Source: Mytilinidion resinicola (taxonomy: Eukaryota; Ascomycota; Dothideomycetes; Mytilinidiales; Mytilinidiaceae). From it: DNA of 64,000 bases. The stretch spans positions 2,414,786-2,478,785 of the forward strand of contig NW_022985438.1 in assembly GCF_010093595.1 (NCBI RefSeq), in the 5' to 3' direction. Of this stretch, positions 46,907 to 60,400 are shown piece by piece. A program made the translations under genes and the position numbers. The notes beneath the pieces were generated by a model, which saw nothing but the letters and a program-made list of their open reading frames with translations, was not told the origin of the DNA and did no database searches. Position 1 is the stretch's first letter. Every line of letters starts with the position of its first letter.

Positions 46907-47730
46907 ATGCGAATTCCATTTACTGGACCGATTTCCTCGAATTACGAGTCCTTGTCTGACCGCGAACTCCATCCTGAACCCAGGTCGAACCCTCGAAATG
47001 CGACTCTTATCATAGTTCTTATAGCCACAGCGGCTTTCGCGTCGGCATTGGGGTTCTATGCTGGAAAAAGCTCGATCAAAGCCACAGACGAAGGATTGCT
47101 ATGTGCGAAATTCCAACACTGCGAGACAAGATAAGAATAATTGACCCTGATCAGTACCACCGGGAAACGTCCACCAAATCTGGCATTACAATGAAACATT
47201 CTCCCAAAAACCTACTCCGCAATCGGAAGCAGCGTGGAATTCTTTAGCCCCAGGTAAGATCCTTAGCCGGTGTTGAGTGATAGAAATTAATGGAAAGCTC
47301 CACAGTCGGACGTGGATTCGTCTACCACCCCTTTGTATCTCCTGTCGTTTCAGGAATCGCCGTCTTCCACCAGCTGCACTGCGTAGTACGTTTCTCTACC
47401 CGCATCTATAATCTACCCTAACAGTACCAGCACGGCCTCCGGCTCGCATACTACATCACTACCCATCGGCTGCAACTCTTGAACGGATCCCACACGAACG
47501 ACACATACCTTGACAGCATCGCCGCGCGTACCAACATCGAGCATATCCGCCATTGCTTCGACTACCTCCGCCAATCGATCATGTGCACCGCGGATACGAA
47601 CCTCGAGACGGTGAATCAGGAGCATCACACCGTGAATGGGTGGGGATCGGAGCGGCAGTGTCGAGACTACGGCGAGGTTATGCGGTGGGCGGAGCGGTGG
47701 CGGAACGATTCGTCTAGTGGAATTCTCTAA
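46907..47730 (+). CDS. UstYa-family (DUF3328) protein 1
   Basis: Four exons (46907-47102, 47155-47253, 47306-47385, 47425-47730) give 226 residues starting MRIPFTGPISSNYESLSDRE. A single transmembrane segment (ATLIIVLIATAAFASALGFY, about residues 32-52) precedes the lumenal domain with PPGNVHQIWHYNETF. The family's double motif is intact: HQLHC at 120-124 and HCFDYLRQSIMC from 168, which are proposed metal-binding and catalytic sites. UstYa-type proteins perform oxidative cyclisation or cross-linking of RiPP peptides (ustiloxin, phomopsin, asperipin) and act in some other mycotoxin pathways. The first donor (GTGCGA) is weak, so exon 1's end is the least certain point. The stop lies 55 bp from that of the second UstYa gene. 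Confidence 0.85.
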
Positions 47731-47785
47731 ATAGACAAAGATGCTAGTGATGGTGGTAGTAGTAGTAATGCGTAACTGCATATGA

Positions 47786-48779
47786 TCATCTCCTGCTAGC
47801 GGGAACGATAATGGACCAGTCCGACATGTCTACCATTTTGCCCCTTGCCCAAGTATCTAGAAGTTCCCAGTTGACGCATTCGTGGTCACTATAGACGGTT
47901 GAAAAGGGTTTGTTGTCGGCCCATCGGAAAGTACTAGGATGTATGAGCGTAGGACTACAGCCATTGGCTGGCGATGTACCTTAGAGTTGTGTCGCCCCTG
48001 CACATTGCGGCCTCTCGCCAGTATTCCAAGCAGTGATCTGAAAGAAAGTTGAGACATAAATATACGGTCCGAGACTTGAGTATCCGCCCTACGCACCGAT
48101 GTGAGGTCCTTCTCGGAGTCGTTCATCTTCCGTCATGTTTGGATAGTAATGATCAAGGTAGAGATGCCGTCGAATACGTTTCTATGAATGTGTCAGCCAG
48201 TACCTACTCGTACACAAGCTCTTGAGGAGACAAACGATGCAGTGAAGTTCATGATATACTGCCGTCTCAGCGATATAACCAGAGCCATCTCTGAGCGCGA
48301 TGGAAGTTTCATTGATTTTAGCAAGCTCGTCCCGGGAGATTCGAATAGTCATTGCTGCATTACACATCAGTCCACTTCCAGGATTTTGTAGATGAGTTAA
48401 GTTTACGTTCGATCAAACGACGCCAAGCGTGATCATGCTCTGGTCGTGGAGCACCGGTATAAACATTGTTCTCGATGTTTCTGATAAGTCTTTTCTTCTC
48501 GTAACGGATTACGCTCTTCGCTGGTGCTTGACGGATATTAGACTTGGTGATAATCGGATTTGTCGAGGACAAGCACTCACAGTAAACGAGTTGTGGACGG
48601 ATGCATTCTGACGGCGATGCGTTCAACCAAAGACTGATGAACAAAAGATTGGAAAGACTCAAAAGAGCAAAGATAAAGATATGTTTAGGAGACCTCCGGA
48701 AGATAGGGGGCGTTAAATGGTCAAACTTTCTATCGTCAAAATCGACACTGGAGAGTGTTCGGTATTCCTCCCTATCCAT
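47786..48779 (-). CDS. UstYa-family (DUF3328) protein 2
   Basis: Six exons (48779-48581, 48520-48407, 48354-48236, 48181-48097, 48037-47980, 47933-47786) give 240 residues from MDREEYRTLSSVDFDDRKFD. A transmembrane segment (HIFIFALLSLSNLLFISLWL) lies at about residues 33-52. Both family motifs are intact: HELHC at 139-143 and HCLEYWREAAMC from 174, followed by RGDTTLSTFRWADNKPF and the typical HECVNWELL. It is clearly a different subfamily from protein 1, so the pair resembles the UstYa/UstYb pairs of dikaritin clusters rather than a recent duplication. The two genes are convergent with only 55 bp between stop codons. The substrate is unknown; see the repeat precursor at 52214. Confidence 0.87.
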
Positions 48780-49346
48780 ACTAAAGACACTGAAGACAGA
48801 GACCAACCTCGTCGAATCTTGAGGTCATTGGGGTAGGCCCCGCTGACAGCTTAGCCTGGCTAGATATGGCACGGCCCAGCCCTTTGGATCCTACTGCTCA
48901 CCGCCGACCATGCAAGTCACTCAATTTATAGGGTTGCATGGAACCGTTGCCGAGCCTTTCCGCACTCAGGGGGGCAGGATGGCACAGGATTACATCAATT
49001 TGTAGGATTGCATGGAACCGTTGCCGAGCCTTTCCGCACTCGGGGGGCCTTGCTGTGCCACCCGAACCTGCCCAATTGGAGGGTGACGATAGTGCTTCGA
49101 AGGCGCTGCGGCTTTGGGAGGGTGGTGTCGGTACATTCACTATTTCGAAGAATCGAAAAGATCAAGTTAACCTGGTGCGGCGTGGCTTCCGCGCTGGCGG
49201 TGACTGTCCGTGCCAGCTTTCCTTAGAGGCAGGCGCACCGGCGTTGCGTTGAGCACTCCTCACAACACTGGAACCCACATTTAGTTGTTGACGTGCAACA
49301 AGAACACTGAAGAAGCAGACTTAAGACCGGCATCAAGGCAACCACC
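48780..49346. promoter_or_regulatory. Divergent promoter region between UstYa 2 and the aldehyde dehydrogenase
   Basis: The two genes are transcribed away from this 567-bp gap, so control sites may be shared. It contains the 74-bp-spaced direct repeat listed separately. No gene is supported. Confidence 0.45.
48921..49047. repeat. Direct repeat of about 54 bp, two copies with 74-bp period
   Basis: Both copies (48921-48974 and 48995-49047) read TCAATTTRTAGGRTTGCATG, then GAACCGTTGCCGAGCCTTTC, then CGCACTCRGGGGGGC; only about four bases differ. The 20 bases between copies are unrelated. Their place between two divergent genes of a possible cluster makes them candidate regulatory sites. Confidence 0.8.
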
Positions 49347-51073
49347 ATGACAGTCTACCAGGAGCCCAACGGCACCGACGCAATCGTTGTCCCGCTCTGG
49401 ATCAACGGTGAACAGAAGACGAGTTCCTCGAGCTTCAAGGTGATCAGTCCTGGCTTGGGCACCGCTTGTTGGCGAGCAGCGACGGCGAGCAAAGGGGATG
49501 TGATCGAGGCCATAGACGCCGCGCAAGGCGCCTTTCCTAGCTGGAGCAAGACGAAGCCCAGCATGCGCGTTAAGATCCTGCTCCGAGCAGCCGACATCAT
49601 GGAGCACAACATCGACGAGTACGCCGGCTTCATGGCCACAGAGATGGGCGCCGACATAGGGGTCGCGAAGTTCTTCGTGACGCCCTTGAGCATCTGTATG
49701 CTTCGAGACATCGCGAGCCGCATATCGAGCATCTGCGGAACGGTACCCGTGTGCCAAGACGAGGGAACCAGCTGCATCGTGTACAAGGAGCCGTATGGCG
49801 TGACACTTGGGATTGTTCCTTGGTACGCAAACTCTTAAGACGAGAAAAGTCTCCGGATGCTGATACTGAACAGGAATGCCCCCTACGTCTTTGGAATCCG
49901 CGCCGCAGCCACCGCTATCGCCACGGGAAATACGACCATCTTAAAGGCGTCGGAACTTACGCCTCGCTGCTACTGGGCCATTGGCAAGGCCTTTTCTGAG
50001 GCAGGATTGCCTCCGGGCGTGCTCAACATTCTGACCTGCCCGCCATTTGATGCCCCAAATATCGTGAATGCTATGATTGCGCATCCCGCTGTCAAGAAGA
50101 TCAACTTCACTGGAAGCGCTAGTACCGGCAGGAAGGTAGCCCGAGCGTGTGGCGAGAATCTGAAGCCATGTCTTATGGAGCTGGGAGGGAAGAACAGTGC
50201 TATTATACTCCCAGATGCCAATCTTAACAAGGCAGTGACTGAGTGCATCGCTGGCTCGTTCCTCAATGTAAGTGTCCTTTACCCATAACTCCCTCGTATT
50301 TCCAGGGACTGCATGTGCAGTGCTACGTTTTTCCCCCTGGCTTCTGTGCTCACCTCTCTTAGGCTGGGCAGATATGCATGGGAACCGACCGTATCATCCT
50401 CCACGCCGAGATTGCCCAACCTTTCCTCGCAGGCTTAAAAGCCGCGCTGACAGCGATGAGCAAACAGCCTGCTCCACTCCCACGGGTGGTTAGTTCGGCC
50501 TCCAAGGATCGTCTCCAATCCCTTGTATCCAGCGCCCTGGCGGCCGGAGCAGAGATGGTGTTCCGCGGGGATACTGATGAAGTGATCGATAAAAGCGGAA
50601 CCATCTTCATTCCCGCAATTCTAGGTGGCATCAAGGACGACATGGAGATCTGGACCCAGGAATCGTTCGGCCCCGTCGCAGCTTACATGGTGGTTCAGGA
50701 CGAAGACGAGGCAGTGAGACTCGCCAATACCACCGAGTACGGCCTGTCGGCTGCCGTGTTCACGAAAGATCTCCGTAAAGGTCTTGCCATTGCGAAGCGA
50801 CTGGAATCAGGGTGAGTGATCTTCCTTCATCGTAGTCTTGATTTCCTCGCCAGGAAACCCTGAGATTTCTCCGCGGACGTATTATTTTTGATCCAATCAG
50901 CATACTAACTGGCCCGTCTTAAAAATAGAGCGGTGCATATAAATAGCATGACTATCCACGACGAGCCTGCCCTTCCGTTTGGTGGTATCAAGAGCAGCGG
51001 ATGGGGAAGGTTCAATGCGGCTAGCGGTATGGAGGAATTCCTGGTCACGAAGTCGGTCACTTGGGACGACTAG
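49347..51073 (+). CDS. Aldehyde dehydrogenase (ALDH superfamily)
   Basis: Four exons (49347-49822, 49874-50267, 50363-50811, 50929-51073) give 487 residues from MTVYQEPNGTDAIVVPLWIN. It should oxidise an aldehyde to an acid with NAD(P)+. The cofactor region has GVTLGIVPWNAPYVFGIRAA and KASELTP; KKINFTGSASTGRKVA is the coenzyme-loop motif; ELGGKN holds the general-base Glu, and AGQICMGTDR the catalytic Cys. ESFGPVAAYMVV and NTTEYGLSAAVFTKD follow, and the end has PFGGIKSSGWGRFNAASGME EFLVTK. It resembles the salicylaldehyde/vanillin-dehydrogenase-like branch, which is common in aromatic catabolism and in biosynthetic clusters. It is divergent from UstYa 2 and upstream of the repeat precursor. 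Confidence 0.93.
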
Positions 51074-52213
51074 ATTCCCAATCTTCCATCTGCTATAACG
51101 ATGGATCTTGGCCGATAGCTTCGACGGACCAAGCGAGCAGTGAGGGAAATGGCTTTTGGAACTCTGATGTATGCAGTGTGCCTAGGTGGAAATGGCAGAT
51201 AAGTCATGCACGAAGACGGCCAAGCTAGGAATAGAAATTATTTGCCATCAGTCAACGATGATGCCATACCCCGCATCCGCGCAATGGAGTATTGCCTTGC
51301 GATACGATACCTAGTATTAGGGTTTCGTTCTGTGCCGTGTTCCGTTGGTGTCCAGGCTGTTAAACCTCGGAAGCCGACCTGGGTGTGTTGTTGCAGCAAG
51401 GGATTACTCGATGTCACACTGGGTATGCAGGTCGGTCCTGCAGCGGGCCAACCTTCCTTCCCTCCCGCTGCCGCATTTTTAAGTGGGTCAGCCCAATATC
51501 TTCTCTCGTTCTGCTGACTCTCATTTTCCCGATCAGGCGCCGTCCTCCCTGAGAGTAGACCCCTAGGCGAAGTCGGTTTCAAATATCTAGAGGAATAAGC
51601 TAGCCGAGTAACGGTATGTGCCATACACGTCTGGACTGGCGCGCGGGTCACACGCCAGAGCAGCATCCCACTCCAACGAATGGCTATGTCTTAAGTTCTG
51701 GATATGTCCGTTTCCCATGGGATCGCGGTCGCAGGTCAAGGGCATACGTAGGATTCAGGTAGATGCCGCCCATCCGCTCTCCCTGCGCCTGTTAAATTAA
51801 TCGAGAGCCTGCCGTACGACATGTCCACTGGGCATGCGCAGTTCCAGCGCGATCCTCCATGCCATCATGGTAAGTTTTTGATCGCTTCGACCGCCTTTCC
51901 TAAGAAGAACGCGTAAGTGGGGTGGCACAGGAAAGCCAATGGATGACGATCAGCGGGCTTCTTTGGCGGTCAAAGGGAAACGGAAATAATGGTCCCGAGA
52001 TCTAGATACAACGTTGTTATGCGCGGGTGGCTCGACGCTGAGTATTTAGATGTCGGGAGCGCCGTACTGTAGATGACAAGCAACCTTCTTGAGCTCGGGT
52101 CAATACAAGAACTCGACATATCGTTCTGAAGACGTATCTTTCATTCACTGAACCGTCAAATCGATTTCATTCGCCAGTCGGTGCGAGGGACATACGAGAC
52201 AAACCGAAACATT
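51074..52213. other. Intergenic region upstream of the repeat-precursor gene
   Basis: About 1.1 kb without a supportable gene. The last 100 bases are the likely promoter and leader of the secreted repeat protein. Confidence 0.45.
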
Positions 52214-52586
52214 ATGCGCCTCAGCTTGTACATCACTCCACTCATGGCTCTCATCAGTGGTGCCTTCGCATTTCCCATTCCAGAAGGTAAACCTTTGCAC
52301 TGATTGAAGGTTGTTTCGAAATTCTGGGCTAATCATATCGAAAGGCGCTGGGACTGTTGACGCAGACGAGAATGTGGGAAACAGCTGGCACGAAAGGAAC
52401 CCTGCCAACAGAGTGTCGCGCGCCAAAGCCGATCCCGATGAGGTTGTAGGCAATAGTTGGCACGAACGAAACATTGGCAACAGAGTCTCCCGCGCCGAAC
52501 TCGACGCCGATGAGCAGGTGGGCAACAGTTGGCAAGAACGGAACCCTGCAAACAAAGTCGCTGTGTGGATAGACAGCAAAGATTGA
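52214..52586 (+). CDS. Small secreted tandem-repeat protein, candidate RiPP precursor
   Basis: Two exons (52214-52286 and 52345-52586) separated by a 58-nt GT-AG intron give 104 residues. A clear signal peptide (MRLSLYITPLMALISGAFA) is followed by a short spacer (FPIPEGAGTVDAD). The rest, residues 33-104, is exactly three 24-residue units with no remainder. Their conserved core is VGNSWHERNPANRV (variants VGNSWHERNIGNRV and VGNSWQERNPANKV), separated by acidic linkers (KADPDE, ELDADE). Units 1 and 2 end in RVSR-A, a minimal RxxR-type processing site; no KR or RR is present. The last unit ends differently (AVWIDSKD). Each core has one Trp and no Tyr or Cys. The layout is that of fungal peptide precursors (dikaritins, repeat pheromones). 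It could also be an effector-like repeat protein. Confidence 0.8.
52368..52583 (+). repeat. Three in-frame 72-bp repeats within the precursor gene
   Basis: The units are 52368-52439, 52440-52511 and 52512-52583. Synonymous differences between them (for example AACAGCTGGCACGAAAGG, AATAGTTGGCACGAACGA, AACAGTTGGCAAGAACGG) are frequent while the protein core is kept, which indicates selection on the peptide. Confidence 0.9.
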
Positions 52587-56689: not shown

Positions 56690-57493
56690 CTACAATGCAA
56701 CAGCAAAGCCCAACATCGCAGCACCAACCGCAGCCCCGACGCCCGCCGTCCTCATTGCTCCCGCACCTGTACTTGTCGACGTCGCCGCTGCAGCCGTCGC
56801 AGTTCCACTTCCCGTTTTCGCCGCTGCGGTGGCTGTCGCAGCAGCTACTTGAATCCCGTACTGGGTATTAACAACCGGTGATCCCGAGATAATGCTTGTC
56901 ACGACGTTGGTCGCCGTTGTCTTTTCAGTGCAGCCAGACCTAAAAAAGATGTTAGCTATGGCTTTTTCATCGAATATCAGGGAGTACTAGCCAAGTTGTC
57001 CACGGAGCAGCTGTACCCCAGGGCCCTTGAGTCCAACCAGACCATGTGCTGAAAAAGCTGTTAGCAATGGCTCTTTCATTCAACCTAAGGGCTAGTAGCT
57101 AATATCTCACCTGTCAGGACAGTCGCTTTTACCCCACCACTGAGTCCATGGGCCTGATTGCCATGCGCCGCTGCTTGCCCATGGCCCCCAGGCGGTGTTC
57201 GAGGCTCCGCCGAATGGCCAGTCACCCGACTTAAAGTCGTTCCATGGTCCACTCTTTGTGCTCCAATCCGAATTCCAGGGACCGTATTTGGTAGTCCAGC
57301 TTTGCCAGTCTGAATTTGATCCCCACGGGCCGTTGGGACCGTTACTCAAGTGACCTGGGCCCCATCCATCGCCGCTCTTGGTAGGCCAGGGAGCATCAGA
57401 TGTGAATGAAGTTTCGGGGGATGCGGTAATGGTGGCAGCGAGGGCGGAGGTAGCAAAGGTTGCGACGGCAGCAGCGGTGGTTTGGAACTTCAT
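56690..57493 (-). CDS. Secreted Trp-rich (GPW-repeat) protein, probably GPI-anchored
   Basis: Three exons (57493-57111, 57048-56992, 56939-56690) give 229 residues. A signal peptide (MKFQTTAAAVATFATSALAA) is followed by a region of about 110 residues with about 20 Trp, built around repeats such as GPWNSDW, GPWNDF and WGPWASSGAWQSGPW. Exon 2 adds WSGWTQGPWG and PWTTW. The last exon is Thr/Ala-rich and ends in a hydrophobic stretch (AAVGAAMLGFAVAL), as expected for GPI attachment. The second intron must use a GC donor (GCTAGT) to keep the frame. Introns 1 and 2 resemble each other strongly in their 3' halves. No family is recognised; a cell-wall or surface role is inferred. Expression level and function are unknown. 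Confidence 0.72.
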
Positions 57494-60400
57494 GATGAGG
57501 ATGTTGATGGTTTGGTATATGGAGAGTAGAGATAGGATTGGATAGCGATAGACAGAGCTTTCAATCTGATGAGAAGGAAGTATGTAGGAAACGCTGCATT
57601 CTAAATACCTCTTGCGCGGCCCCACACACAGTTGGGCCTGCCACCCCGGCATCGTCATCAGCAGCCACAAGCCCGGAGGGGTCCCGTGAGGCTGAGTGAA
57701 GGGTCTACTGTTGCTAGAGTTTTGACCGACAGGGCGCTGACGCGTCGAGGCGTGAACGGCGCGGGGCACAGCAGAAGCCATGGCGCAGGCAGGGCGCAGA
57801 TTGGCTCAAAAGACAACTCAGAAGGATCGTCAGCCCTACAGCGGCCGGGAGGGGCTTAGGAGGGCGCGGATGTGCCGGCGCTTGGCATCTGAGATGCTCG
57901 GGCTTGATTTCGGGAAATGGGGTTGCCCCGGAGGAGCACGCACCGCATGCTCGCAGGCTGCGTTCATCATTGCGCTTGGCTCCAGTCGGGAACATTAAAG
58001 ACGGCATGCGAGAGCTTGTGCTGTCAGTCAGGCCCTTGCGGAACGCGTATACAAGACGTCCAAGGGTCCCTACACCCTGGATCGCAGTGGCATCGAGAGA
58101 GAGGTGTGGAGATGTTGAAGAGCCTACCTTCTTGTAGCGAAGCCATCGGGGACCCGCGTCGATCTCGGAGGATAGCTCCTCTCAAACACGAATTCCTTAC
58201 CTCCATGACACCATCTTGAGGCGGATGTGAGATCACTCACAACCTCTAACTCAGTTCAGCCAAGGCCTCCATCACGATCATCCTTCAAGAGGCTTTGAAG
58301 GCGCGCACTGCAAGCCCAGCTGCCACCTCCGAATGCCCACATGCCACACCCGACCCGACGGCCCATTCACGGGAAAGGATGGAAAATATCCAATCAAGTC
58401 ACTGGAAGCCTTGAAATGCTTATGCAGGGCTCCGCAAGTTTGCGGCTTACAAGTCCCATCCTTCCTTCGACTACAGCTGCGCCTCTCGTATATCTTTAGG
58501 CTGGTTGCCTGTCACTTGTCGCGTCCTTGTCCAGTCTCGTGGGTAAGACATCCATTGGCTTGATGATGAGAAAGGAATGCCAGGCATGTCAGTGAAGCCG
58601 CGTCATACGAAGGTAGGCAAGGGAAAACAGTGAAGCGTCTAGGGTACCTAGTGTTGGAGTCATACAGTGCCTTGCCATAGATATCCGCACATTTTCCTGC
58701 CACTGTCTATAGAAACCGAGTGCAGTGGATAGAATATTCCAACCTGCGTACGCCCTGATGACGCTGTCTGGGGTAGTCTCACGAATTTACTAGTGGTCCA
58801 AAACACCGAGTCTCTTTCCCATGTGGAATGTTGAAATACTATGAAGCTACTCATGCAGCGGTAAACGAGTGTACGAATTTCTATGACGAGGCAGTGCGAA
58901 GTTCTGAAAAAGGTCTCATCGATTGGAGCGATTTCGGGTCTGAACTCGTCAGCCTCTCTGAATGATGCAACACTCATAGAGTCAGCTGTGGGGACGTCCT
59001 CGAAGCGTTTCACCTCCATTACAATCAACTTTCAACTTAACGCCAAACCACAAGAACGACGCACGCGGAGCATGGAAAAGGTGGCACACTGATCCTAGAA
59101 CAAGCTGTCTCGTGTGCACACCTGTCTGCCACTGCTTGGGTTGCTTCAATGTATTTTCAGGAATTTAAAGAAGATAGATGCTCTTCGCCTTGGGCTATGT
59201 GAGAACTTGTTGAAGCACTTCCTGCAGTGGTAAACAGGTGTACACACGGGCAGAGTACTTGCCTAGCGTGCGACGCAGTCCGTGTATATACCGATGCATT
59301 CCTATGGTTCTCTATGGTCCGACAGCTCTTCTGCCCTATCACTACCCGGACGGAGCAACCTATGCTCAATAATGCTGCCATGAATGCTCCTTGTCCCGAC
59401 TGCATCCATATGCAGACTTCCCCCAGAACCAAAACATAACAGCCATGGTTATACCAATCCAACCGTACGCCGAATCGGACAATGCACGAACAAATAACGC
59501 TTATCCCGTATGCGCCGAGGGAGATGCCAGCGCAGCGATTGCGCAAAATTATGCGATAACAAAGGAAAAGCTCGCAGGTGTATGCTGCTGAAGCGTGTGC
59601 GATGGGCGCATGCAACGGGGGATCTCGAGTCCAAGAGGAGTAGTGGGGCTAACTCTAGCATTTCGGCGAGGGGCTGAACTCAATGCGGGGTCTGGTCGAA
59701 CAACACTAGTCAGTAACGCGCTGGTAAACATCCATGAGACAGGATCTGTCCGTACCTTGTGAGATATGACCCATCTCTCCTTGTCCTCCGAGTTTCTAAA
59801 AGTGGCGGCACGAACGGCAGTGTGAATGCTCCGACGAGGTAGCAGCTCATAAGGGACGCTTTCAGCCTGAAGTGGGGGTCTCGCGGGGCTTGTTGCGAAT
59901 AGCGGCGGATGTGAGGGACAATGTGTGTTGCGATGGCCATTCTTGCAGTTATTTGCCCGAGCTCGGGTGCTGTGATGCTGTATAGAGTCTCGCGAACGGT
60001 GGAGGTAGTGAGGGTGTATGTTGACTGTAGTAATAGTAATCAGTATTGCAGACTGCGCGTATGGCTATACTTGTAGCAGGGTTGGTAATAAGGGTTTAGA
60101 GAGTGCATCCTACGAACCTGAAATGCGCGGCCGACAGTGCTGTGGCTTTCTGGGGCTGTTCTGGCGCGTTCAAGGGCTGCAGGCAGGGCTGCAGGGAAGC
60201 GGGTCTCAAGGAGGGTCCGAATGCTGCTTGAAAATGCGGTTTTGCGTCTGGCAGAATGTCGATGTTATGGCGAGAAAGGCGAGCGTGGAGAGGAGGAGAG
60301 AGGCCTTTGTAGCTGTAGGCAAGAGTGTTTGTGGGGTATAGGCATGAGTCCACGGTGAAGTCTGGAATCAGGCCACAGTCGTGCGAGCATTGTCGACAGA

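Follow-up and report, generated by a model that had tools for sequence, protein, structure and literature searches.

A UstYa gene pair near a secreted repeat precursor with candidate single-arginine cutting sites in Mytilinidion resinicola

Here we describe a block of four genes in the genome of the dothideomycete Mytilinidion resinicola (47.1 Mb, 44 contigs), located in a 64-kb window (the whole stretch of DNA that was analysed, C2:2414786-2478785) and comprising two genes of the UstYa family, ustY-A and ustY-B, an aldehyde dehydrogenase (ALDH) gene and a gene for a short secreted protein made of tandem repeats. On balance, we lean towards the view that this locus makes a UstYa-modified secreted repeat peptide with the core VGNSW[H/Q]E, which would be cut out of its precursor after single arginines. 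To read it as a locus for a ribosomally synthesized and post-translationally modified peptide (RiPP) is the likeliest explanation and an unproven one, with modification, cutting and co-expression inferred. The dikaritin label suggested by the first-pass annotation of this DNA cannot be kept unchanged, since both the dibasic Kex2 feature and the tyrosine core are missing; the locus would behave as an ust-RiPS locus whose cutting code differs.

Splicing by hand gave intact models for all four genes which, together with their Pfam matches, bear out the earlier statement that two complete UstYa genes, an ALDH and a secreted repeat protein lie here. The ustY-A gene (46907-47730, + strand) encodes 226 amino acids and contains three introns (47103-47154, 47254-47305 and 47386-47424), while ustY-B (48779-47786, - strand) encodes 242 amino acids and contains five; the two are convergent and lie 55 bp apart. 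Both were assigned to the UstYa family by a score above the curated Pfam cut-off of 25 for PF11807 (ustY-A, E 1.3e-22, 81.2 bits; ustY-B, E 1.5e-54, 185.7 bits) and by the presence of two HxxHC motifs, HQLHC and HIRHC in ustY-A, HELHC and HIDHC in ustY-B. The spliced ustY-B product is 100% identical to the public M. resinicola protein P0048, and the spliced repeat protein to P0001 (BDZ99DRAFT_494303). No 100% match to ustY-A was present among the 45 relatives listed, so this gene may be unannotated in the public proteins. No close copy of either UstYa gene was found elsewhere in the genome, the best matches by E-value reaching 39% (A) and 31% (B) identity over partial length. A structure model of ustY-B (mean pLDDT 81.3, alignment of 38 of 91 matches) has one N-terminal helix (residues 31-53), which we read as a membrane anchor, followed by a mixed folded domain in which helices carry the HxxHC motifs. 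The model for ustY-A, represented by protein P0003 of Lophium mytilinum, resembles it (mean pLDDT 76.4, alignment of 34 of 45 matches). Neither a sequence search (E <= 1) nor a Foldseek search with the model (E <= 0.001) matched ustY-B to a solved structure.

The repeat precursor gene (52214-52586, + strand) encodes 104 amino acids and is split by one intron (52287-52344) into a signal-peptide exon (52214-52286) and a repeat exon (52345-52586). After the signal peptide MRLSLYITPLMALISGAFA, judged by eye, the protein consists of three repeats of about 24 amino acids each, whose coordinates (all + strand) were derived by hand from the spliced model: copy 1, VGNSWHERNPANRVSRAKADPDEV, at 52374-52445; copy 2, VGNSWHERNIGNRVSRAELDADEQ, at 52446-52517; and copy 3, cut short, at 52518-52583, where VGNSWQERNPANK is followed by a divergent tail. 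The first-pass annotation had called these repeats exact, which is too strong: Tandem Repeats Finder resolves a 72-bp unit in 2.5 copies (75% matches), and they are near-exact only. Still, none of the other tandem arrays of the window, 14 in all, scores as high (206, against 124 for the runner-up). The protein matched no Pfam family at E <= 0.01.

Of 22 candidate homologues only two matched the precursor at E <= 1, the protein itself and one from L. mytilinum (P0002), a member of the same family, Mytilinidiaceae, with 74% identity over 104 columns. In the two species together VGNSW.E....N is invariant in all six repeat copies, and VSRA and D.DE in all four internal copies. Copies 1 and 2 of M. 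resinicola (24 codons) differ by eight silent and six replacement codons (dN 0.19, dS 1.27); in their first 16 codons the counts are seven and two, and dS is not computable there. Copies 1 and 3 (13 codons) differ by four silent and two replacement codons (dN 0.07, dS 0.93), and for copies 2 and 3 dN is 0.18 and dS 0.89. The resulting dN/dS values, from few codons, are 0.15 (1-2), 0.07 (1-3) and 0.20 (2-3), all well below 1, and on this sequence evidence we read the repeats as old duplications maintained by selection on the peptide.

Candidate single-arginine sites recur in this array. The motif [RK]VSR↓A stands at each internal junction in both species, and W[HQ]ER↓N occurs in five of the six copies. 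In M. resinicola the putative site RVSR↓A between copies 1 and 2 lies at 52410-52421 and a second one at 52482-52493 (both + strand). Monobasic cutting finds some support in the literature: Kex2-processed repeat proteins (KEPs) expressed in Pichia pastoris gave peptides apparently ending at single arginines (PMC9769878), and Glu is named among the best alternative residues at the P2 position of Kex2 (PMC8528282).

The association with L. mytilinum extends beyond the precursor. This species gave the best non-self match for all three genes (ustY-A, 83%, P0003; ustY-B, 81%, P0049), in records with the same longest contig of 2,251,244 bases, which suggests that its precursor and both UstYa genes are on one scaffold, without implying adjacency; equal contig size in the protein listings is the only stand-in for synteny outside the M. 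resinicola genome. Searches of viral-contig and genome-contig collections gave no relative of the UstYa pair with genomic context.

By the same measure, 14 of 45 gene A matches share an exact contig size with one of 91 gene B matches, some of these contigs being millions of bases long, so that sharing is not adjacency. Record numbers are consecutive in six of the 14 pairs (Aspergillus pseudocaelatus, A. oleicola, Xylariaceae sp. FL0255, Hypoxylon argillaceum with 515174/515175, Penicillium chermesinum, and Apiospora aurea with PG986_009314/009315), and the lack of sharing in the remaining 31 matches is partly due to clustered or short records. Judged from these records, the UstYa pair is older than its link to the precursor and widespread among fungi. 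Both HxxHC motifs are present in 13 of 15 A proteins and 14 of 15 B proteins (the 14 pairs and M. resinicola); they are incomplete in A proteins of 205 and 192 amino acids and in a B protein of 199. Distances among A and among B proteins are correlated (r 0.36, p 0.002, 15 species; r 0.30, p 0.03, 14 species without M. resinicola; r 0.67, p 0.0001, 12 species with two fragment-containing pairs also dropped), which we do not count as proof of interaction, because shared species history produces it too. By genus, shared contigs link a ustY-A type with a ustY-B type in Aspergillus, Penicillium, Xylaria, Hypoxylon, Apiospora, Podospora, Periconia and Lophium, a widespread two-gene UstYa module.

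The other UstYa loci of the M. resinicola genome served as a control. The set comprised 19 further UstYa-matching places, taken as 9.9-kb loci (one shorter at a contig end; masked bases, 3132 in L017 and 139 in L021). Six of them (L012, L013, L016, L017, L018 and L022) contain a secreted repeat precursor with the layout of the window gene, i.e. a signal-peptide-like open reading frame (ORF, judged by eye) that can be joined to a repeat ORF by removal of a short intron with GT-AG ends (50-76 bp in the best-scoring models; splice sites weak in L016 and L017). Left out of this count were L021, with a longer protein of 42-aa repeats, and L011 and L030, with low-complexity repeats, L030 being a flank without its own UstYa match. 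When five 9.9-kb regions picked at random from 14 of the 44 contigs, a very small control, were put through the same ORF scan, repeats turned up only in L033 (a long Pro-rich ORF and overlapping frames). In the published background 69,264 of 14,491,621 proteins are secreted and carry tandem repeats (PMC7329392); against this, six of 19 gives P ~5e-5, a rough value that assumes eight genes per locus and compares different detection methods. The link between UstYa genes and repeat genes thus looks general in M. resinicola, and chance may still account for any single locus.

Five of these genes, at L012, L013, L016, L017 and L022, are candidate ust-RiPS precursors in their own right, with dibasic sites and with repeats around SSYAEKEKR, QYSHLY, ARIGYKDKR, GSGLWWKR and FWQSGDWKR. 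Within ~6 kb the L016 locus (G000:C20:696428-702554) has three UstYa matches, of which one scores under the family cut-off, as well as its KR-bearing repeat precursor. The sixth, L018:7283-8134, has PHHKG repeats with single arginines and cysteines, and its top model contains one dibasic pair, near the N-terminus; L018 and the window gene may have a common unusual cutting code. Common ancestry of the window repeats with the KR-bearing repeats of the genome was rejected, as none of five alignments was significant (the best, with L017, was equalled by 253 of 1000 shuffles).

A number of observations weigh against our explanation, most of them concerning the precursor. It contains no KR, RR, KK or RK in M. 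resinicola, and its L. mytilinum homologue has one RR at the C-terminal end and none between the repeats; dikaritin-type Kex2 processing is therefore not supported. A KEP is defined by at least three repeats of at least eight amino acids between KR, KK, RK or RR (PMC7329392), and a second survey also demands dibasic pairs, with unusual Kex2 sites not excluded in some fungi (PMC6339444). As it has no dibasic Kex2 site, the window precursor falls outside both the published KEP definition and the textbook picture of a dikaritin precursor, and would be left out under the rules of both surveys. In a Kex2 scoring matrix any P2 residue except Lys or Arg, including Ser and Glu, is given zero (PMC2515848), and copy 2 of the L. 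mytilinum protein reads WHEQ↓D, so that WHER↓N is not found in every copy. Dibasic sites lie between the repeats in five of the six other precursors of the genome (not in L018). There are three repeats only, and copies 2 and 3 (13 codons) differ by more replacement (4) than silent (3) codons. The repeat core carries Trp and His and no Tyr, the latter being present in 65.6% of the repeats of UstYa-linked KEPs, in which Trp is not enriched (20.5% vs 24.5%; PMC7329392). To these we add that six of 19 UstYa loci against none of five random regions is not significant (Fisher test, p 0.28), and that no repeat homologue was found outside Lophium though the UstYa pair is widespread. The first-pass annotation had expected its proposal to fall if the pair were kept elsewhere without the repeat gene, and half of this was observed: many distant fungi keep the pair, and a repeat homologue was found in Lophium only. 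Fast-changing precursors would give the same picture.

The same features suit another explanation, namely that the repeat gene encodes an unmodified secreted peptide or surface protein, unrelated to a UstYa pair acting on another substrate. The absence of Kex2 sites, and of Tyr from the repeat, speaks for it, 78% of KEPs in the published survey have no UstYa neighbour (PMC7329392), and from the counts of that survey the rough chance of a secreted tandem-repeat gene among eight neighbours is 3.8%, or 0.75 expected per 20 loci; the ALDH gene also separates the pair from the repeat gene. Against this stand the richness of UstYa loci in such genes (the six of 19 above) and the L. mytilinum relatives in records with the same longest contig, and we give this explanation a real but minor chance. 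Far less credit is due to the idea that the gene is a decayed dikaritin precursor, which has lost its Kex2 sites (KR to ER) in a locus on its way out. It draws on an alignment by eye, in which WHER takes the position of WWKR in the L017 precursor; however, that similarity is no better than many shuffles, dN/dS between copies is well below 1, and L. mytilinum likewise has no internal dibasic sites. A pheromone precursor was rejected for want of dibasic sites and of a Pfam match, fungal alpha-pheromones having KR sites and then XA/XP-type dipeptides before a short repeated peptide (PMC6339444).

The ALDH gene (49347-51073, + strand; 487 amino acids, three introns) is of the aromatic-aldehyde type and a doubtful member of the locus. 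Its product matches Pfam Aldedh (E 8e-131) and, among solved structures, is most like a salicylaldehyde dehydrogenase (6qhn) and a vanillin dehydrogenase (9ihb); among NCBIfam models the best 25 of 43 were all far below their cut-offs. An ALDH-like stretch (E <= 1e-3) was present at one of the 19 other UstYa loci, with 31% identity. Because of this likeness and this rarity its membership is doubtful: the gene is probably a bystander, and we would assign it to the pathway only with considerable reluctance. Its position tells against our explanation as well, since it sits between ustY-B and the precursor, which is thus two genes from ustY-B and three from ustY-A, while at the six other loci a UstYa match is found ~1-2 kb from the repeat gene. 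Of the RiPP-type locus proposed at first, therefore, the UstYa pair and the repeat gene stand, as they fit the ust-RiPS pattern seen at six of 19 other loci, and the ALDH is the doubtful part.

Nor does a promoter motif unite the genes. A 36-bp element lies in two copies (48932-48967 and, with one mismatch, 49006-49041, both + strand) within the 567-bp promoter shared by the divergent ustY-B and ALDH genes, and these are the two copies reported genome-wide (47.1 Mb, up to three mismatches). Upstream of ustY-A and of the repeat gene, its matches did not surpass those of shuffled sequence; the 9-12-base words that the ustY-B/ALDH and repeat-gene regions have in common stayed within the shuffle range, and none occurred in all three regions. 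A promoter motif common to the locus was therefore rejected, a further point against our explanation. The same holds for two usual partners which, as the first-pass annotation noted, were not found: the genome has 16 tyrosinase matches and at least 149 Zn2Cys6 matches (150 of 296 candidates scored), none of either in the window.

The four genes could be chance neighbours, the ALDH degrading aromatic aldehydes and the UstYa pair tailoring the product of another cluster, e.g. a nonribosomal peptide; UstYa-type proteins also take part in cyclochlorotine biosynthesis (PMC12048977). The salicylaldehyde and vanillin dehydrogenase matches agree with this, as does the setting of the block between fungal-rhodopsin and adaptor medium-subunit genes, without typical cluster genes. 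We hold it to be improbable, in view of the same picture given by L. mytilinum for the UstYa pair and repeat gene, and because no further core biosynthetic gene was seen in the set scanned, which comprised 12 proteins or ORFs, a part of those in the window.

Under the explanation that we prefer, a UstYa-modified repeat peptide, the 104-aa precursor would enter the secretory pathway through its signal peptide, and the two UstYa proteins would be anchored by one N-terminal helix each, with the HxxHC-bearing domain predicted to be lumenal. The repeated core, VGNSW[H/Q]E, would be oxidised by the UstYa proteins, probably at Trp, at a neighbouring residue or at both, the enzyme-substrate link and the chemistry both being presumed. 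Three core-bearing peptides would then be released by a Golgi protease cleaving behind single arginines, with [RK]-V-S-R↓A as the site at the junctions between copies and W-[HQ]-E-R↓N perhaps as another; trimming of the acidic spacers would leave the putative product. Calculated [M+H]+ values of unmodified peptides are 984.4646 for VGNSWHER, 1536.7414 for VGNSWHERNPANR and 2706.3455 for AKADPDEVVGNSWHERNIGNRVSR.

A bolder and more tentative proposal, which we consider possible at best, is that the locus represents a class of UstYa-dependent RiPPs whose precursors are cut at single arginines by a non-dibasic code and have a core centred on Trp, tied to the widespread two-gene UstYa module. If true, such members would be missed by the two KEP surveys demanding dibasic sites (PMC7329392, PMC6339444), and, if UstYa enzymes also serve single-arginine-cut precursors, the number of modified-peptide pathways in fungi has been underestimated. 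UstYa loci in which no precursor is seen, e.g. two lichen clans (PMC12048977), would then be searchable by a looser rule. Among the matches listed from the open literature, none named either species jointly with UstYa or DUF3328, and the repeat letters gave only a malaria-vector-spraying match by title, taken for chance.

The block is flanked on the left by an ORF with a glutathione S-transferase N-terminal domain and the fungal rhodopsin gene, and on the right by the adaptor medium-subunit gene and a methyltransferase gene. Elsewhere in the window, the ORF at 57107-57805 (- strand) starts in the manner of a signal peptide and contains many imperfect, Trp-rich GPW/SDW repeats; it has no Pfam match.

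Of the known systems, the dikaritins or ust-RiPS (ustiloxin B, phomopsin, asperipin-2a, victorin) are like the window locus in their signal-peptide precursor with tandem repeats and in the nearby UstYa genes with two HxxHC motifs. A secreted repeated-core precursor and UstYa genes beside it are thus shared, and dibasic Kex2 cutting and a tyrosinase gene are not: the window locus differs by the absence of KR, RR, KK and RK between its repeats, by a Trp/His core without Tyr, by having only three repeats, and in that neither a tyrosinase nor a Zn2Cys6 match falls in the window. A tyrosinase is needed for ustiloxin and phomopsin and does not belong to every dikaritin pathway. The features of known dikaritins are described in part in PMC7329392, PMC12048977 and PMC10512285. 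KEPs resemble the window precursor in the signal peptide, the three repeats and the short protein, and differ in the dibasic sites that define them. The precursors at L012, L013, L016, L017 and L022 have dibasic sites between repeats, unlike the window gene, and no significant repeat similarity to it; they are like it in the signal-peptide exon, short intron and repeat exon, with a UstYa match ~1-2 kb away.

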